Positions 6,739-56,983 of a DNA stretch of 64,000 nt are shown piece by piece. The stretch spans positions 368,022 through 432,021 of the forward strand of contig NZ_JH711483.1 of the NCBI RefSeq assembly GCF_000269805.1, written 5' to 3'. Below the pieces are notes generated by a model. The model was not told where the DNA came from. It searched no databases and was given only the letters and a program-made list of their open reading frames with translations. This stretch comes from Actinomyces massiliensis 4401292 (lineage in GTDB: Bacteria > Actinomycetota > Actinomycetes > Actinomycetales > Actinomycetaceae). The position numbers were made by a program, and so were the translations under genes. The first letter of the stretch is position 1; every line of letters starts with the position of its first letter.

Positions 6739-7164
6739 GGAAGTGGTCCTTTCGTCATGGGTCCCGTGTGACAGAGGGCCTGTGCCGGTTGGCGGTGAGC
6801 TGAGCAATGACGGCTCGCAGCCGACGAGCGGCCGGCTAGTTGTTGACTACCGGCCGACTCAACGTCGGGTCGTGGTTGGCTGCTAACCGATTCAGAGTCT
6901 CATGTGGCCGGGCCAGATGAAAAGCGAATGAGTTCGGGTGTCCGAAAAGTTTGGAGGTCGGCATCGTCGCGAGTTGATCGAGCGCGTCCGAAATCCCTCT
7001 GATCTGGTGCGGCCGGTGCGCGCATGTCCTGTTGGCCCGCGGTCAGGCGGACCGATCTCGGTGCGGAGGTGCTCGGTTGGTTAACACCGCTGTCAGGGGC
7101 GGTAGGCGCTGATGCCTGGGTGAGCCGGGATGCTTGACACGCTCTGCAGGACTGCTGCCCTGCA
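6739..7164. other. modA upstream region
   Basis: No gene is seen. It should hold the modA promoter. One isolated copy of the 22-bp-family motif (GACCGATCTCGGTGCGGA) lies at 7050-7067. No convincing molybdate-repressor palindrome could be picked out by eye. Confidence 0.35.
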
Positions 7165-7488
7165 CTCTGTCGGTGTCCGCGTGGTCTGCGTGGGCTGGGG
7201 GTGGTGGGTGTTGCACACTCGCGCGTGCTCTGCGTCGGTGGGAACCGCGGAATCATGCGGGACAGCAATGTCAGTAGCGGTCACGGTTCCGCTCCCATGT
7301 GCAACACCGACGACAACCACGCCCCACACCGAGATCGGTCCACTTCCGGCACGAGATCGGTCCAGGTCAGCCCGGCCAACCCGACGTCGAGGCACGCACG
7401 ACAAGCTCGAGGGCGAAGGCCGCATGCCGCACCTCAGAACCATTGGCGAGCAGCAGGCCCGCAGCAGCGCAACCGATCTCGGTGCGGA
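7165..7488. repeat. long intergenic repeat element, copy 1
   Basis: About 324 bp are nearly identical (roughly 95 %, about a dozen mismatches plus a small indel) to 35154-35475. It contains an 11-bp inverted repeat, GGTGTTGCACA at 7207-7217 and TGTGCAACACC at 7298-7308. Inside that is a second pairable stem (GGAACCG/CGGTTCC). Two inverted copies of the ACCGATCTCGG motif sit at 7328-7362, and the element ends in a direct copy at 7472. Both copies lie between two minus-strand genes, downstream of one (narI here) and upstream of the next (modA here). No ORF in it has a codon pattern like its neighbours. Confidence 0.75.
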
Positions 7489-7511
7489 AGCGGACCGATC
7501 TCGGTGGAGTT
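7472..7511 (+). repeat. 22-bp-period repeat, two units, at narI 3' end
   Basis: ACCGATCTCGGTG begins at 7472 and again at 7494, exactly 22 bp apart, finishing about 13 bp beyond the narI stop. The core ACCGA-TC-TCGGT is itself an interrupted palindrome. See the other arrays at 27647-27728 and 35459-35540. Confidence 0.65.
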
Positions 7512-7523
7512 GGCGGCAGTCGG

Positions 7524-8318
7524 TCAGGCGCCCTGCGAGGGGGTGACGTCGTCGAAGCCCTGGTTGCCGGTTCCCTGGGTGCGCACGGGCGTCCATCCGC
7601 GGCGCGGAGCGGCGGCGGAGGTCGCCCCCTCCCGCGAGCGGTAGACGACGTAGGGCCTGGTCATGTACCCCACCGGGACGCTCACCACGTGGACCAGCCG
7701 GGTGAAGGGCCAGATGGCGAAGAGCAGCAGGCCGGCCACGATGTGCAGCTTGAACACCGTCGGCACATCGGCCATGAGCTCGGGCTGGGGATTGAGCAGG
7801 AAGATCGAGCGGAACCACGGGCTGATGGTCTCGCGGTAGTCGTAGCCGCCGTGCAGACCGCCCAGCAGCTGGGTGGAGACCGTCGCCCACGCTCCCAGGC
7901 AGATCGGCACGAGCAGGAGGACGTACATGATCTTGTCGTTGGTCGTCGTCGCCAGGCGCACGGACTTGACGACGATCCGCCGGTAGATCAGGCCGCCCAG
8001 GCCCACCAGTGTCATGATTCCCGCCAGCGTGCCGGGAATGACCGCCATGAGGTGGTAGACGTGCTCGGGGATGCCGGCCGCCTCGGTCCAGTCCTTGGGG
8101 ACCCCCAGGCCCATGCCGTGGCCGGCGGCCACGAACAGGATGCCGAAGTGGAATAGCGGGGAGGACCAGCGCAGGATCCGCGACTCGTTCCACTGGGAGG
8201 ATCGGCTCGTCCAGCCGAACTGGTCGTTGCGGTAGCGCCACACCAGTCCCGCGCCCAGAAGGAAGAACGACACGTACGGCAGGGCGATCCACAGGAAGTA
8301 CTGCTCGAAGGCGCTCAT
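7524..8318 (-). CDS. narI: respiratory nitrate reductase gamma subunit (cytochrome b)
   Basis: NarI is the membrane anchor that oxidises quinol and passes electrons through two b hemes to NarH. The 264-residue product has five hydrophobic helices, typical family length, and histidines in the expected helices (LFHFGILFVAAGHGMGLG near 55-72 and LHIVAGLLLFAIWPFTRLVH near 195-215), which are the likely heme ligands. Its ATG overlaps the narJ stop by 4 nt, so it is the last gene of a narGHJI operon. The C-terminal 25 residues are a variable tail rich in Gly/Thr. Confidence 0.95.
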   Translation of the reverse strand: MSAFEQYFLWIALPYVSFFLLGAGLVWRYRNDQFGWTSRSSQWNESRILRWSSPLFHFGILFVAAGHGMGLGVPKDWTEAAGIPEHVYHLMAVIPGTLAGIMTLVGLGGLIYRRIVVKSVRLATTTNDKIMYVLLLVPICLGAWATVSTQLLGGLHGGYDYRETISPWFRSIFLLNPQPELMADVPTVFKLHIVAGLLLFAIWPFTRLVHVVSVPVGYMTRPYVVYRSREGATSAAAPRRGWTPVRTQGTGNQGFDDVTPSQGA

Positions 8319-27069: not shown

Positions 27070-27639
27070 ATGGATGTGGATGCCGCATGGGACATCGTGG
27101 AACAAGTACTGTCCGACCGCGTGCCGACTGTCGCGGCCACGCTGCGGGGGCCGGCGGCCTCGGAGGATATCGAGCGCCTGAGTGCGAGGGTCGGCCGTGA
27201 CTTGCCGGCCGACTTCGTGGCGAGTCTGCGCCGCCATGACGGCCAGGACAATCCGACTCGGCTCCTCGACCTTTTCGACCACTTCACCCTGTTGGGCGTC
27301 GAGGACATGATCGCGACTTCCGACATGCGTGCAGAGGTCTTCGTGGGGGAGGAGGAGACGCCCATCGACTGGATGGTCCCCGACAAGGTCCGCACCGTCA
27401 TGAACCGCCGGGGCTGGCTGCAGTTCACCGACGCCGAAGGCCGTGGCTACGCCCTCGACCTCGACCCGCTCCCGGCGGGCCGGGCGGGGCAGGTCATCTA
27501 CCTGCCGATCGACGGCCTTACGCCCGAGCCCGACTACCCCTCCTTCACGGCCTGGTTCTCCGAGGTCGCGGAGAAGTTCGCCGCCGGCGCCTTCAGCGTC
27601 GAGGACGGCGATGCGATCTGGCTCGATTACGACGAGTGA
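27070..27639 (+). CDS. SMI1/KNR4 family protein
   Basis: The 189-residue soluble protein has the SMI1/KNR4 fold signature: GPAASEDIERLSARVGRDLP near residues 27-46, DFVASLRRHDGQ near 47-58, and the C-terminal YPSFTAWFSEVAEKFAAGAF near 155-175. Family members are often immunity proteins of contact-dependent or polymorphic toxins, but no toxin gene lies next to it. ATG 27070 is a guess: an in-frame ATG lies 18 nt upstream and no strong ribosome-binding site separates them. A 22-bp repeat array begins 8 bp after its stop. Function here is unknown. Confidence 0.75.
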   Translation: MDVDAAWDIVEQVLSDRVPTVAATLRGPAASEDIERLSARVGRDLPADFVASLRRHDGQDNPTRLLDLFDHFTLLGVEDMIATSDMRAEVFVGEEETPIDWMVPDKVRTVMNRRGWLQFTDAEGRGYALDLDPLPAGRAGQVIYLPIDGLTPEPDYPSFTAWFSEVAEKFAAGAFSVEDGDAIWLDYDE

Positions 27640-27646
27640 CGTCTGG

Positions 27647-27728
27647 ACCGATCTCGGTGCGGAATGCGACCGATCTCGATGCGGAACCGGACCGATCTCG
27701 CGGCGGAAGCGGACCGATCTCGGTGCTC
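27647..27728 (+). repeat. 22-bp-period repeat array, four units
   Basis: ACCGATCTCG starts at 27647, 27669, 27691 and 27713, exactly 22 bp apart each time. Units share GACCGATCTCG(G/A)TGCGGAA and differ in the last four to six bases. The array fills the space between the stop of the SMI1/KNR4 gene and the stop of convergent moaA. It is too short-period for CRISPR. Confidence 0.75.
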
Positions 27729-27738
27729 AGCCTCAGCC

Positions 27739-29052
27739 TCAGCCGCCGATGGCGGACATGGTGCGGGCCGGCCGTGCGAAACCGGTGCGGCCCCGTTCCG
27801 GGGCGTCCGCGCCATGGGCGAGCGGCTTGTACCAGGTCGCCCCGGCCCAGATCCGGATGAGCTCGTCGTCGCTCGCGCCGGCGCGCATGGGGCCGCGCAG
27901 ATCCGTCTCCTTATTGGAGAACAGGCAGGTCATGAGTCGTCCATCCGCCGTCAGGCGGGTCCGATCGCAGTCGGAGCAGAAGGGCGCGGTCACCGAGGCG
28001 ATGATCCCTACCGTCCCGGCTGGGTAAGGCCCCTGCCGATTCGCACCGGCGGCGACCTCCCACACGGCCGCCGGACGGTGGTCCGGTCTTCCCCGCGCGT
28101 GCAGCTCGAAGCCCGCCGCTGCCAGGACCTCGAGCACCTGCTGGGCGCCGACCACGTCCTCGGCGCGCCACGACTCGCGCGGTCCCAATGGCATGTGCTC
28201 GATGAAGCGCAGACTCCAGCCGCGCCGCAGGCACTCGCCCAGCAGTCGGGGGGCGCGCTCAGCGAGACCGTCGGGCATGGCCACGGCGTTGATCTTGATC
28301 GGCGACAGCCCCGCCGCCTGTGCCCCGGCCACGCCCCGCAGAACCCCGTCGAGACGATCGCGACGGGTCACGCGCGCATATTCGGCCGGATCCAGGGTGT
28401 CGATCGAGACGTTCACCCTGTCCAGGCCTGCTTCTCGCAGGCCGACGGCGCGCCTGTCCAGGCCCAGCCCATTGGTCGTCAGGCCGATGTCGGGCTTGAC
28501 TCCGCGCCGCGTGTGCAGACCGGCCACTGCGGCGACGATCTCTTCCAGGTCCCGTCGCAGCAGCGGCTCCCCGCCGGTCAGGCGAATCCGCTCCACTCCG
28601 AGGCGCTCCACCGCCAGTCGCGCCAGCCGCCCGATCTCAGTGGTGGTGAGCAGACTGGGCGTCGGCAGCCACTCGAGCCCGGCGGCGGGCATGCAGTAGG
28701 TGCAGCGCAGATTGCAGCGGTCCGTGATGGACAGGCGCAGGTCGCGCACGGTGCGCCCGTGGCGGTCGGTCAGCCGGTCGGGGACCGTGCCTCCCGCTGT
28801 TATCGGAGCCGTTATCGGCGCTGCCGGTCCTGCCTGTCCTGCCTGCGCTGTCAGGGCCGGCAGGGCTGCCGGCGCCTCTGGAGCGAGAGGGGCCCGACCT
28901 CTCTCAAGCCCGGTGCTCCCGGCGTCATGATGCGGCCCGGCCGGCGGCGCCGGAAGCGCAGACGGCACCGGGCGCACCGCCGGAGTCGGCAGTGCCACGG
29001 GCGTGCGCACCGTCATCTCGGCGACGCGGCCGTCAAAGGGCGAAGGAGCCAT
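27739..29052 (-). CDS. moaA: GTP 3',8-cyclase MoaA (radical SAM)
   Basis: MoaA uses S-adenosylmethionine and two [4Fe-4S] clusters to start Moco synthesis from GTP. The radical-SAM cluster motif is RCNLRCTYCMPA near residue 112; the second cluster is seen as FCSDCDRTRLTADGRLMTC near 375. GGEPLLRRDL and a DGVLRGVAGAQAAGL stretch also fit. The conserved C-terminal Gly-Gly tail is present (SAIGG). Before the domain lies an 85-residue Pro/Ala-rich extension that is atypical; the true start may be later, but no better site with a ribosome-binding sequence was found. It is convergent with the SMI1/KNR4 gene. Confidence 0.93.
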   Translation of the reverse strand: MAPSPFDGRVAEMTVRTPVALPTPAVRPVPSALPAPPAGPHHDAGSTGLERGRAPLAPEAPAALPALTAQAGQAGPAAPITAPITAGGTVPDRLTDRHGRTVRDLRLSITDRCNLRCTYCMPAAGLEWLPTPSLLTTTEIGRLARLAVERLGVERIRLTGGEPLLRRDLEEIVAAVAGLHTRRGVKPDIGLTTNGLGLDRRAVGLREAGLDRVNVSIDTLDPAEYARVTRRDRLDGVLRGVAGAQAAGLSPIKINAVAMPDGLAERAPRLLGECLRRGWSLRFIEHMPLGPRESWRAEDVVGAQQVLEVLAAAGFELHARGRPDHRPAAVWEVAAGANRQGPYPAGTVGIIASVTAPFCSDCDRTRLTADGRLMTCLFSNKETDLRGPMRAGASDDELIRIWAGATWYKPLAHGADAPERGRTGFARPARTMSAIGG

Positions 29053-34945: not shown

Positions 34946-35153
34946 GTAGTGAGCCTACGGGAGCGATATCGCTTGCACAAAGCCCATGGTTGGTCCCCGG
35001 GTGCCGTCGTCACCCGGATGCTCGGCCCGTGTAGACCGATCTCGATGCGGAATGTGGCGTGTTAGGACATCCGGGACAGGGCGAGTGTTCCTGGTGGGGC
35101 GGTTCTCGGGGCAGGGGGGTCGTATGAGTGGGGCTTGGACGGCTGCGGGCCGG
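34946..35153. other. upstream region of the Cys-rich regulator gene
   Basis: No gene is seen. It should contain the regulator promoter. One single 22-bp-family motif, ACCGATCTCGATGCGGAA, lies at 35035. The rest of the gap to 35556 is filled by the long repeat element and a repeat array. Confidence 0.35.
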
Positions 35154-35475
35154 CTCTGTCGGTGTCCACGTGGTCTGCGTGGTGGGGGTGGTGGGTGTTG
35201 CACACTCGCGCGTGCTCTGTGTCGGTGGAAACTGCGGAGTCATGCGGGACAGCAATGTCAGTAGCGGTCACGGTTCCGCTCCCATGTGCAACACCGACGA
35301 CAACCACGCCCCACACCGAGATCGGTCCACTTCCGGCTCGAGATCGGTCCAGGTCAGCCCGGCCAACCCGACGTCGAGGCACGCATGACAAGCTCGAGGG
35401 CGAAGGCCGCGTGCCGCACCTCAGAACCATTGGCGAGCAGCAGGTCCGCAGTAGCGCAACCGATCTCGGTGCGGA
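35154..35475. repeat. long intergenic repeat element, copy 2
   Basis: About 322 bp are about 95 % identical to 7165-7488 and in the same orientation. The 11-bp inverted repeat is conserved exactly at 35194-35204 and 35285-35295; the two inverted ACCGATCTCGG motifs recur at 35314-35348. Context is also the same: between two minus-strand genes, here downstream of a GNAT gene and upstream of a regulator. High conservation between non-coding copies 28 kb apart points to recent transposition/duplication or to selection on the sequence. Confidence 0.75.
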
Positions 35476-35540
35476 GTACGACCGATCTCGGCGCGGAACC
35501 GGACCGATCTCGAGCCGGGTTACGACCGATCTCGGGGTGG
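35459..35540 (+). repeat. 22-bp-period repeat array, four units, at GNAT 3' end
   Basis: ACCGATCTCG begins at 35459, 35481, 35503 and 35525, again with an exact 22-bp step. The first unit is the end of the long element; the array stops 17 bp past the GNAT stop codon. The copy at 7472 has two units at the matching place, so unit number differs between loci. Confidence 0.75.
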
Positions 35541-35556: not shown

Positions 35557-36222
35557 TTACCGGTGGTCGTTGGCAGGGCGGGTCATGGCCCAGTAGGCCG
35601 ACGGCAGCGGCGGAGCATCGAGCACGGCGACCTGCTCGAAGCCCAGGCGCTCGTAGAGGCGCCGTGAGCCGGGGCTGGTGGACTCCAGATGAGCGGGCAC
35701 GCCATCGGCGTCCACCCTCTCCAGACCGTGACGCAGCAGGGCGCTGCCGGTGCCCGTACCCCTGGCCTCGGGGGCGACGGCGATCATGTACAGGTACCAG
35801 TGCGGAGTCGGCGGGCGGTGGGCCTCGCACGTGCGGTTGTTGAGCAGGCACAGCTCCCACGCGCCTCCAAGCAGCCCGAGGTCCAGCCCGGGCGGCAGCG
35901 CGCCAGCGAGTCCGAGCGGTCCCGCGACGTCGTGGGCCTCGCCGTCGGTGCCCGGGGCGTCCCACAGGGTGACGCCGAGAAGACGACCCGAGCCGTCGAC
36001 GGCGGCATCGACCCGGGCGCTCGCACGTACCGCCTCATCCTCGCTCAGGTAGTGCGAGGCCAGCTCGATGCGGTGGAGGTGGTCGAGGGCCGCGCGCGGG
36101 TCGGGGGCCGCGGCGACGATGACGCTCATGATCGGGTCGGGGAGGAAGGCGTCGGTGAGCAGGTCGGCGACGGCGCCCAGATCATCGGGGCCGGCAGCGC
36201 GGATCATGGGCGTGTTCACCAT
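35557..36222 (-). CDS. GNAT family N-acetyltransferase
   Basis: The 221-residue protein shows the acetyl-CoA-binding motif A, MIAVAPEARGTGTGSALLRH near residues 146-165, preceded by the beta-4 stretch HWYLY and followed by LESTSPGSRRLYERLGFEQV. It should transfer an acetyl group to a small molecule or protein amine, but the acceptor is unknown. It stands alone with a 151-bp gap to rsgA on the same strand. Confidence 0.85.
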   Translation of the reverse strand: MVNTPMIRAAGPDDLGAVADLLTDAFLPDPIMSVIVAAAPDPRAALDHLHRIELASHYLSEDEAVRASARVDAAVDGSGRLLGVTLWDAPGTDGEAHDVAGPLGLAGALPPGLDLGLLGGAWELCLLNNRTCEAHRPPTPHWYLYMIAVAPEARGTGTGSALLRHGLERVDADGVPAHLESTSPGSRRLYERLGFEQVAVLDAPPLPSAYWAMTRPANDHR

Positions 36223-47187: not shown

Positions 47188-47309
47188 AGGTCGTCCCCGG
47201 TCTGACCCCGCTGTTCAAGGCCGACCCCGACATTCGCGTCTACACCGTCGCCTGATCCATCGAGATCGGCCGGCTCCGCCGTGAGCTCGACCGGCTCCGC
47301 CGCGGGGGG
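47188..47309 (+). repeat. 122-bp exact direct duplicate of 56795-56916
   Basis: The segment is identical to the last 68 bp of the small gene at 56578-56862 plus the 54 bp after its stop, including its GC-rich GAGATCGG/GAGCTCGACCGGCTCC repeats. It carries only the gene fragment ending VYTVA. The copies are in the same orientation, about 9.6 kb apart. The IS110-family element begins directly after this copy. Confidence 0.85.
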
Positions 47310-54272: not shown

Positions 54273-55560
54273 TCAGGTGGTGATGGCGGGCAGGGCGGGG
54301 CGACTGTTGACGCCGTCGGTGCTGTTGTCGGTGTGGAGCATGTCGGTCAGGTGTCGCAGTGAGGTCTGGGAGAGGTATCGGCGTTCTCCGTACTGCCACT
54401 CCTCGTTGCTCTGGCAGGACGGAGCCGATCAGACGGGTGACGGACTCGCTGTCGGGGAAGACCTGGACGACGTCTGCGCGGCGCTTGATCTCGCGGTTGA
54501 GGCGCTCGATGGGGTTGTTGGACCAGATCTTGGTCCAGTGCTCCCCGGGGCGGACGGGTCGTGGCGAAGGCCGTTGGGTCCGGCTCGGCGTCGGCCGGCA
54601 TCTGAGCGATCTCGGGGAAGGCGTCCCTCAAAGTGTCGATGACGTGCTGGTACTGGGCGGCGACGGCCTCGGGCGTGGTCTGGGCGAAGATCGTGGAGAC
54701 CAGGGCGCCCGCGGGCTTGGACTGGGCCGACCCCAGCTTGGAGGTGATGGTGCGGGCGAAGTGGACGCGGCAGCGCTGCCAGGACGCCCCGGGCAGGATG
54801 GCCCTGACCGCGGCGCGGATGCCGGCGTGCGCGTCACTGGTGACCAGGACCACGCCCTCGGGGTCGTGGGGCGAGGGGACCTTGAGTCCCCGTTCGCGCA
54901 GGGACCGCAGGAAGGACGTCCAGAAATCGGTGGTCTCGGCGTCCCCCAGGGCCATGTTCCGGGATCTCCCGGCGGCCCTGGGCCGACACGCCGGTGGCCA
55001 CCACCAGCGCCCGGGAGACCACCCGGCGCCCCGCCCTCACGTCCAGGTACGTGGCGTCCACGAACAGGTAGGGGAATCGGGTGTGGTCCAGGCGGCGGGA
55101 CAGGAACTCGTGCACGTCCTCGTCGATGTCCTTGCAGATCCGGGAGACCGTGGACCTGGAGATCCCGGACTCATTGCCCAGGGCCTTGACCAGGTCGTTG
55201 ACCTTGCGCGTGGAGACCCCTTCGATCCACGCCTGGCAGATCACGGCGCAGGGCCTTGTCCACGCGCCTGCGCGGGTGGAGCAGGGACGGGAAGAAGGAT
55301 CCGGTCCGAAGCTTGGGGATGGCGAGCTCGACCTCGCTGGCGGTGGTGGCCACCGTCTTGAGGCGCTTGCCGTTGCGCCTGTTGGTGCGCTCCGGCGTGC
55401 GCTCGTAGCGCCCCGCGCCGATCACGGCGGCGGCCTCGGCGTCGACCAGGTCCTGCAACCCGGCCTGGAGCAGGCGGCGGAAGACGTCGTCGTGAGCGAG
55501 ATCGGGGTCGGCAAGGACTTCCCGGATCAGCGTGGACACGGCAGACTGGTGACTGGGCAT
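54273..55560 (-). pseudogene. IS256/Mutator-family transposase, multiply frameshifted
   Basis: Pieces in different frames together make a full transposase. From ATG 55560: IREVLADPDLAHDDVFRRLL and GAGRYERTPERTNRRNGKRL; then IEGVSTRKVNDLVKALG and FPYLFVDATYLDVRAGRRVV; then GVVLVTSDAHAGIRAAVRAI and GASWQRCRVHFARTI; then, near 54520-54480, NNPIERLNREIKRRADVVQV. At least four shifts are needed, near 55240, 54960, 54550 and 54410. The element is therefore dead. Confidence 0.85.
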
Positions 55561-56577: not shown

Positions 56578-56862
56578 ATGACCGCATATCTCCAGGTCAC
56601 CATGACCATCAACCCGGACGACCGCGCCGCCGGCGCCAAGGTCTACTCCGACTACCTGCAGGAGTTCCTCGACACGGTCCCCGGCGCGAGGACCAAGGAG
56701 CTTCTCGTCCGCGATGAGGATGTCCAGGTCCTCCACGGCTTCGAGACCCCCGAGCAGGCCAACGCCTACCTGAGCAGTGAGCTCTTCACCACCAAGGTCG
56801 TCCCCGGTCTGACCCCGCTGTTCAAGGCCGACCCCGACATTCGCGTCTACACCGTCGCCTGA
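56578..56862 (+). CDS. small protein, possible ABM-like alpha-beta barrel
   Basis: The 94-residue protein, MTAYLQVTMTINPDDRAAGA onward, has alternating strand and helix segments and a size like dimeric ABM-fold proteins, but no catalytic residues are diagnostic; the call is tentative. GAAGAAG lies before the ATG. Its last 23 codons and following 54 bp are duplicated exactly at 47188-47309. The stop is followed within 8 bp by two GC-rich units related to the 22-bp repeat family (period 21 here). Confidence 0.6.
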   Translation: MTAYLQVTMTINPDDRAAGAKVYSDYLQEFLDTVPGARTKELLVRDEDVQVLHGFETPEQANAYLSSELFTTKVVPGLTPLFKADPDIRVYTVA

Positions 56863-56983
56863 TCCATCGAGATCGGCCGGCTCCGCCGTGAGCTCGACCG
56901 GCTCCGCCGCGGGGGGCGGCGGTCCTGTGCTGTCTCGGTGCGGAGCTCGACCGGTCCGGGTGAGGGGGACTCCTGGGCCGCGC

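Follow-up and report, generated by a model that had tools for sequence, protein, structure and literature searches.

What is a row of four short repeats, each starting exactly 22 bp after the one before, doing in the gap between two genes of Actinomyces massiliensis? The window, the whole stretch of 64,000 nucleotides analysed here, contains several such rows, which we call arrays. The arrays may constitute a transcription-stop signal that has not been described before; a mobile element inserting at gene ends is nearly as likely.

Arrays in the window and the 22-bp unit

The final unit of an array stops short after about ACCGATCTCGGCG, and we call this side the closing end. The features of the window are as follows.

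27647..27728, plus strand: four-unit array, units at 27647, 27669, 27691 and 27713; fills the gap between the convergent SMI1/KNR4 (+) and moaA-type (-) genes, 13 nt from closing end to moaA-type stop
35459..35537, plus strand: four-unit array, units at 35459, 35481, 35503 and 35525; 19 nt from closing end to the stop of GNAT (-)
7472..7506, plus strand: two-unit array, units at 7472 and 7494; 17 nt from closing end to the stop of narI (-)
7324..7361, minus strand: inverted two-unit array, partner of 7472-7506
35311..35348, minus strand: inverted two-unit array, partner of 35459-35537
7051..7066, plus strand: single unit
35035..35050, plus strand: single unit
7362..7471, minus strand: 110 bp between inverted arrays, resembling the 3' end of a LacI-family regulator gene
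35349..35458, minus strand: 110 bp between inverted arrays, repeating the LacI-family 3' end of 7362-7471
7165..7504: composite repeat of 340 bp (palindromic piece, inverted arrays and LacI-gene fragment)
35154..35491: second window copy of the composite repeat, 95.3% identity with 7165-7504
56869..56909, minus strand: 21-bp-period repeat after the stop at 56862; second copy at 47262-47302

The coordinates and the 22-bp spacing given in a sequence-only reading of this DNA were right, and its inverted pairs correspond to the minus-strand arrays at 7324-7361 and 35311-35348. It had also placed the arrays near three stop codons. Our own gene calls with Pfam agree, with SMI1/KNR4 (+) ending at 27639, narI (-) at 7524 and GNAT (-) at 35557, and add the moaA-type radical SAM gene (-) ending at 27739. 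Allowing up to three mismatches, the 16-mer of the repeat matches 21 times in the window against 2.46 expected, and none of 100 shuffles reaches 21. The looser relative suggested after the stop at 56862 fared less well: with its period of 21 bp and its copy at 47262-47302 it is a degenerate relative at best, and its membership in the family is doubtful. The same gene 3' end, followed by this 21-bp tandem repeat after the stop codon, occurs at both places, which are probably a duplicated segment.

Two side observations concern the same window. The palindromic piece at 7187-7328 and 35172-35317, of the form GTTGCACA...TGTGCAAC, is found beside arrays at several loci of the source genome and elsewhere with CTCCCATGTGC hairpins; it may be a separate miniature element. 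A truncated Mutator-type (IS256-like) transposase is located at 55171-55560 (Pfam E 8e-25).

The phase is not a peculiarity of the window. Across the 3.37-Mb source genome the 16-mer has 566 matches with up to two mismatches (285 forward, 281 reverse), and its backwards control has one. Exact pairs of the 10-letter core ACCGATCTCG at a distance of 22 bp number 544, with none in the control; over all start distances from 12 to 41 bp there are 545 pairs, so that 544 of 545 keep the 22-bp spacing. Among neighbours up to 100 bp apart in an 864-kb sample of this genome, the distance is 22 bp in 159 of 164 cases. A motif-free scan gives 22 bp, together with its double of 44 bp, as the leading tandem period in the source genome, in A. 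israelii and in a further genome of the genus (G031). The earlier claim of a strict phase with variable unit number holds genome-wide, and the phase is kept in these two further genomes; the arrays observed have 2-9 units.

The unit itself was characterised in 96 internal units from an unselected 1,024-kb sample, the sole selection criterion being that both neighbours were exact. The core is exact in 87 of them and every core position is kept in at least 96%. In the linker, the CGG and the last G are kept in 97-100%, as well as the core itself, and one A in 86%, while at 7 of the 12 positions the commonest letter reaches 33-65%. In partly overlapping or selected loci, the 12-bp linkers are drawn from a small set of words. 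In such loci, too, the position directly following the 10-letter core shows A (53%) or G (44%) in most units, and only 25% have a T at the next position. The second half of the would-be palindrome therefore varies, and the core is not a kept palindrome as had been proposed. In 80 arrays with at least four units, where loci partly overlap and some arrays are counted twice, the mean number of mismatches is 0.45 in the innermost unit and 0.14 in the outermost, a gradient of decay that is suggestive only. Exact cores facing away from each other are separated by no more than 60 bp in 16 cases, six of which have gaps of 5-7 bp with the arrays standing back to back; no inward gap was seen. Long runs of arrays on a single strand were considered and rejected, as both strands are intermixed in the sampled stretches.

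The strict phase, close to two helical turns, and the asymmetric kept core suggest a DNA-binding protein rather than an RNA structure. Repeated binding to DNA, already raised in the earlier reading, would be the most natural interpretation of the unit.

Placement and direction relative to genes

Gene calls were made with our own simple codon-score caller. The 864-kb sample contains 62 arrays of at least two units, which extrapolates to about 240 per genome. They were compared with 105 arrays from two named species, taken from loci with at least three exact units among the matches listed (64 of 66 loci used; L098 and L131 omitted). None of the 62 and two of the 105 are inside called genes. Leaving these (0 and 2) and six edge arrays per set unclassified, 56 and 97 arrays could be assigned. 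In 31/56 and 45/97 of them, respectively, a gene 3' end lies no more than 60 bp from the closing end. Random intergenic placement gives means of 10% and 9%, with maxima of 23% and 18% in 300 simulations, and the opposite end of the array is near a gene 3' end in 21% (source genome) and 10% (named species). No enrichment is seen at start codons (inner end 7% and 5%, closing end 11% and 6%, null 10-12%). The intergenic position near gene 3' ends, as claimed earlier, is therefore confirmed and non-random. The direction of the arrays is new: both sets contain oriented sites just past gene 3' ends, the closing end being turned toward the gene end more often than by chance. In 18/56 arrays of the source genome and 36/97 of the named species, it is a gene 5' end that lies on the closing side.

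Reading outward from a gene, one passes the stop codon and a short, often C/T-rich stretch before reaching the CGCCGAGATCGGTC repeats. A C/T stretch of at least 10 nt is present at the boundary of 32% of 153 arrays, compared with 1.7% at random 3' intergenic points. Pyrimidines make up 88-89% of the six nucleotides preceding the core where a stop lies 12-110 nt away (61 arrays). The figure is 79-80% for the 54 arrays that face a 5' end, and 62-80% for the other two groups. A pyrimidine-rich stretch before the site is thus a property of the group, and in the three window arrays it is not clear. Since the enrichment is also present, somewhat weaker, at the 5'-facing arrays, it may belong to the element itself.

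Hairpins do not distinguish the arrays. Strict terminator-like hairpins are found at 1/81 array ends, 31/438 control ends and 26/438 reversed controls, and the hairpin energies at array ends are like those of the controls, reversed ones included. A strong upstream hairpin is present in some arrays only, with no excess over controls.

Among the 16 tRNA genes in the sampled stretches of the source genome, tRNA-Phe and tRNA-Arg are followed by same-sense arrays 75 and 57 nt on, and these arrays recur in A. israelii at 104 and 93 nt. An opposite-sense exact core was found within 250 nt of none of 21 tRNA 3' ends. No own array is close by at 14 of the 16 tRNA 3' ends in the source genome; tRNA-Asp sits 194 nt ahead of the tRNA-Phe array.

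Distribution and turnover among relatives

The source genome is a separate lineage near A. israelii and A. gerencseriae, being 75-90% identical to them in alignments longer than 1.5 kb. Exact core pairs at 22 bp occur in one of 396 genomes sampled across the phylum, namely the source genome. Among the matches listed, the named records that contain three exact phased units all come from Actinomyces, and the exact 22-bp pair has no match in viral contigs. With a looser pair pattern, 16 of 49 genomes of the genus are positive: 649 pairs in the source genome, 291 in A. israelii DSM 43320, 251 in A. gerencseriae DSM 6844, 69 in G031 and at most 19 in every other genome. With core and spacing fixed by the search pattern itself, the linkers between the cores vary by species group. 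Pairs of CGAGACCGT occur in one of the 49 genomes, at two places. A motif-free scan of 140 kb of another genome (G024) gave nothing comparable to the 22-bp period. In G008 (120 kb plus loci) there are three two-unit arrays with the core AGACCGT, again 22 bp apart and after a C-rich stretch; with three loci only, the evidence for this alternative core is thin.

The arrays come and go between species. In directed comparisons of orthologous positions, 35 of 54 have no array in the same orientation, four of these having one in the opposite orientation. Arrays are shared in 5/8 comparisons from the source genome to A. israelii and 8/20 in the reverse direction, in 1/5 and 1/5 with A. gerencseriae, and in 3/12 and 1/4 between A. 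israelii and A. gerencseriae in the two directions; 'shared' is loose here, because some of the orthologous intervals span as much as about 5 kb. At one site A. israelii has a single decayed unit where the source genome has six units. In a separate set of ten orthologous comparisons, two aligned straight through. When orthologous arrays were compared by eye, gain and loss of units made counts of core versus linker rates unreliable.

Readings of the arrays and known systems

Our leading interpretation, tentative and somewhat short of an even chance, is that each array offers one putative protein an oriented row of binding sites, and that this protein would block RNA polymerase at gene ends. Copies of this candidate protein would sit on one helix face every 22 bp just past the gene end and form a one-way roadblock. 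RNA polymerase exiting the gene would reach the closing end, stall over the preceding C/T-rich stretch and then be released, perhaps with Mfd or Rho, which would insulate the next gene. The kept core, the fixed period, the orientation at 3' ends, the species-specific linkers and, for the arrays as a group, the C/T-rich stretch are all observed and speak for a roadblock, as do the same-sense tRNA arrays, the lack of enrichment at start codons and the unremarkable RNA folding. Together, the 3'-end orientation and the pyrimidine-rich lead-in resemble Pol I terminators.

Other explanations account for part of these data. The arrays could act in RNA: transcribed in 3' untranslated regions, the CGAGAUCGGUC repeats might be recognised by a protein or a small RNA that influences decay or processing. 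The preferred-sense position after stop codons fits this; however, an exact 22-nt phase would have no obvious meaning in single-stranded RNA, the three window arrays fold no better than shuffles (z -0.7 to -1.2), and Rfam gives no match in the window at gathering thresholds, so we regard a role in RNA as very improbable. Sites for a nucleoid or chromosome-organising protein, put between genes where they are least harmful, would agree with hundreds of sites per genome, the strict phase and the near absence from genes (0/62 and 2/105). One particular array end is tied to gene 3' ends, however, and the matches are split almost evenly between the strands (285 forward, 281 reverse), which makes such sites unlikely, if slightly less so than action in RNA. 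A stronger competitor, with a probability of about one third, is that the arrays derive from a non-autonomous mobile element, as its ends or as solitary leftovers; the element would insert preferentially just past gene ends, and its transposase would bind the phased sites. Neighbouring arrays up to 800 bp apart point outward in 13/13 pairs of the source genome and 10/12 pairs at the named loci, and certain interiors recur between paired arrays at several loci, forming composite repeats in the source genome. The 110-bp interior resembles the end of a LacI-family gene, two orthologues being LacI-family regulators by Pfam. The C-terminal peptide of such a gene matches at 15 places in the source genome (E up to 1); one of these places carries a 362-aa open frame and may represent the LacI-family gene itself. 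Array presence varying between species at orthologous sites and an outer boundary motif common to all position groups also favour mobility. On the other side, solo arrays are frequent (30/56 in the source genome, 77/97 at the named loci), and no target-site duplication was established at the array-free orthologous sites, whose flanks are too diverged to define one.

The search for a transposase bears on the same question. The interior peptide was considered as a transposase tail and rejected, its orthologues being LacI-family regulators. A search for IstB, which bears on an IS21 origin, gave two low-score matches in frames of about 480-550 aa. The source genome has three rve matches. No exact core lies within about 1.5 kb of two of them, and the third is an IS inside an array (L199, G000:C1, about 404.2-405.3 kb) with its own TGTACTCGGTCA-type inverted ends; no IstB or rve transposase gene was found bounded by arrays in this genome. 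Y1 transposase was found in 0/6 genomes and detected in 5/14 control genomes. None of nine recurrent protein families at the sampled loci looked transposase-like by its first residues, and one of them, with five members, adjoined arrays in four cases. Thus none of these searches (IstB, rve, Y1, neighbour families) tied a transposase to the arrays, and a known transposon end, which the sequence-only reading had named as the outcome that would speak against it, was not matched in these few searches. At two A. israelii loci (L116 and L134) the interiors beside or between arrays differ from each other and contain long inverted repeats with no relation to the arrays.

To return to the roadblock, several observations count against it. 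Closing sides face gene 5' ends in 18/56 and 36/97 arrays; absence at 35/54 orthologous comparisons is fast for an essential signal; 14/16 tRNA 3' ends of the source genome are without their own array; the LacI-gene fragment is found between inverted arrays at many places, like a mobilised unit; and neither the hairpin tests nor the window arrays, which have no clear C/T stretch, are of help. The roadblock and the gene-end-targeting mobile element are not mutually exclusive. With rather more reserve than for the roadblock as such, we consider that the arrays might form a dedicated genome-wide system of phased protein-binding rows at gene ends for stopping transcription, evolved in a bacterial genus, convergent with Pol I terminators and with a code drifting between species. 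This possibility is drawn from the linkers that differ by species group and from the arrays with the core AGACCGT in G008, which keep the 22-bp phase and the C-rich lead-in. If the roadblock is real, many gene ends would carry DNA marked by a bound protein; this would be the bacterial equivalent of Pol I termination and would offer polar insulators ready for use. If the mobile element is real, a phased element family would land at gene ends in a preferred orientation. Either way the system lends itself to counting: it has a single 10-bp site with a single spacing, and related species provide natural pairs with and without an array. Among the matches listed, the open-licence literature contains no description of a 22-bp phased array family.

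Several known systems share features with the arrays. Tn7- and IS21-type transposases bind repeated end sites. The arrays resemble such ends in their repeated sites of about 20 bp, inverted at the two ends of paired arrays, but no IstB or rve transposase was found between them in the source genome and many are single-ended. CRISPR arrays and plasmid iterons are tandem repeats with regular spacing, as are the arrays, whose linkers, unlike CRISPR spacers, are a few words and not unique. MITEs have inverted terminal repeats around a shared interior; 26/56 arrays of the source genome and 20/97 at the named loci are in outward pairs, and the remaining arrays are solo.

REP/BIME elements are short dispersed repeats found mostly downstream of coding regions; the REPs are palindromes with either a GTAG end, in which case RAYT transposases accompany them, or a CGTC end, in which case they do not (as given in an excerpt of PMC3733652). 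The arrays are likewise short, dispersed and mainly downstream of genes; in contrast, they are same-strand phased rows with no kept palindrome, and Y1 transposase is found in none of the six genomes. In bacterial roadblock termination, a DNA-bound protein such as LacI stops RNA polymerase, with Mfd as a major release factor and the part of Rho unclear; the excerpt of PMC10310618 describes this without a dedicated genome-wide family of end-of-gene sites such as is proposed here for the arrays. According to an excerpt of PMC12366685, a roadblock protein at eukaryotic Pol I terminators makes the polymerase pause 15 bp ahead of the protein's site, within a stretch rich in T or pyrimidines on the non-template strand; a hairpin located before this stretch brings about release. 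The arrays differ in being bacterial, in lying at many gene ends and in forming rows of 2-9 phased units, and homology is not claimed; the hairpin that Pol I terminators have before the stretch is seen at arrays in some cases only. What the arrays have in common with the Reb1/Nsi1 and TTF1 terminators of that excerpt (PMC12366685) is a candidate protein site at the gene end with a pyrimidine-rich stretch before it.
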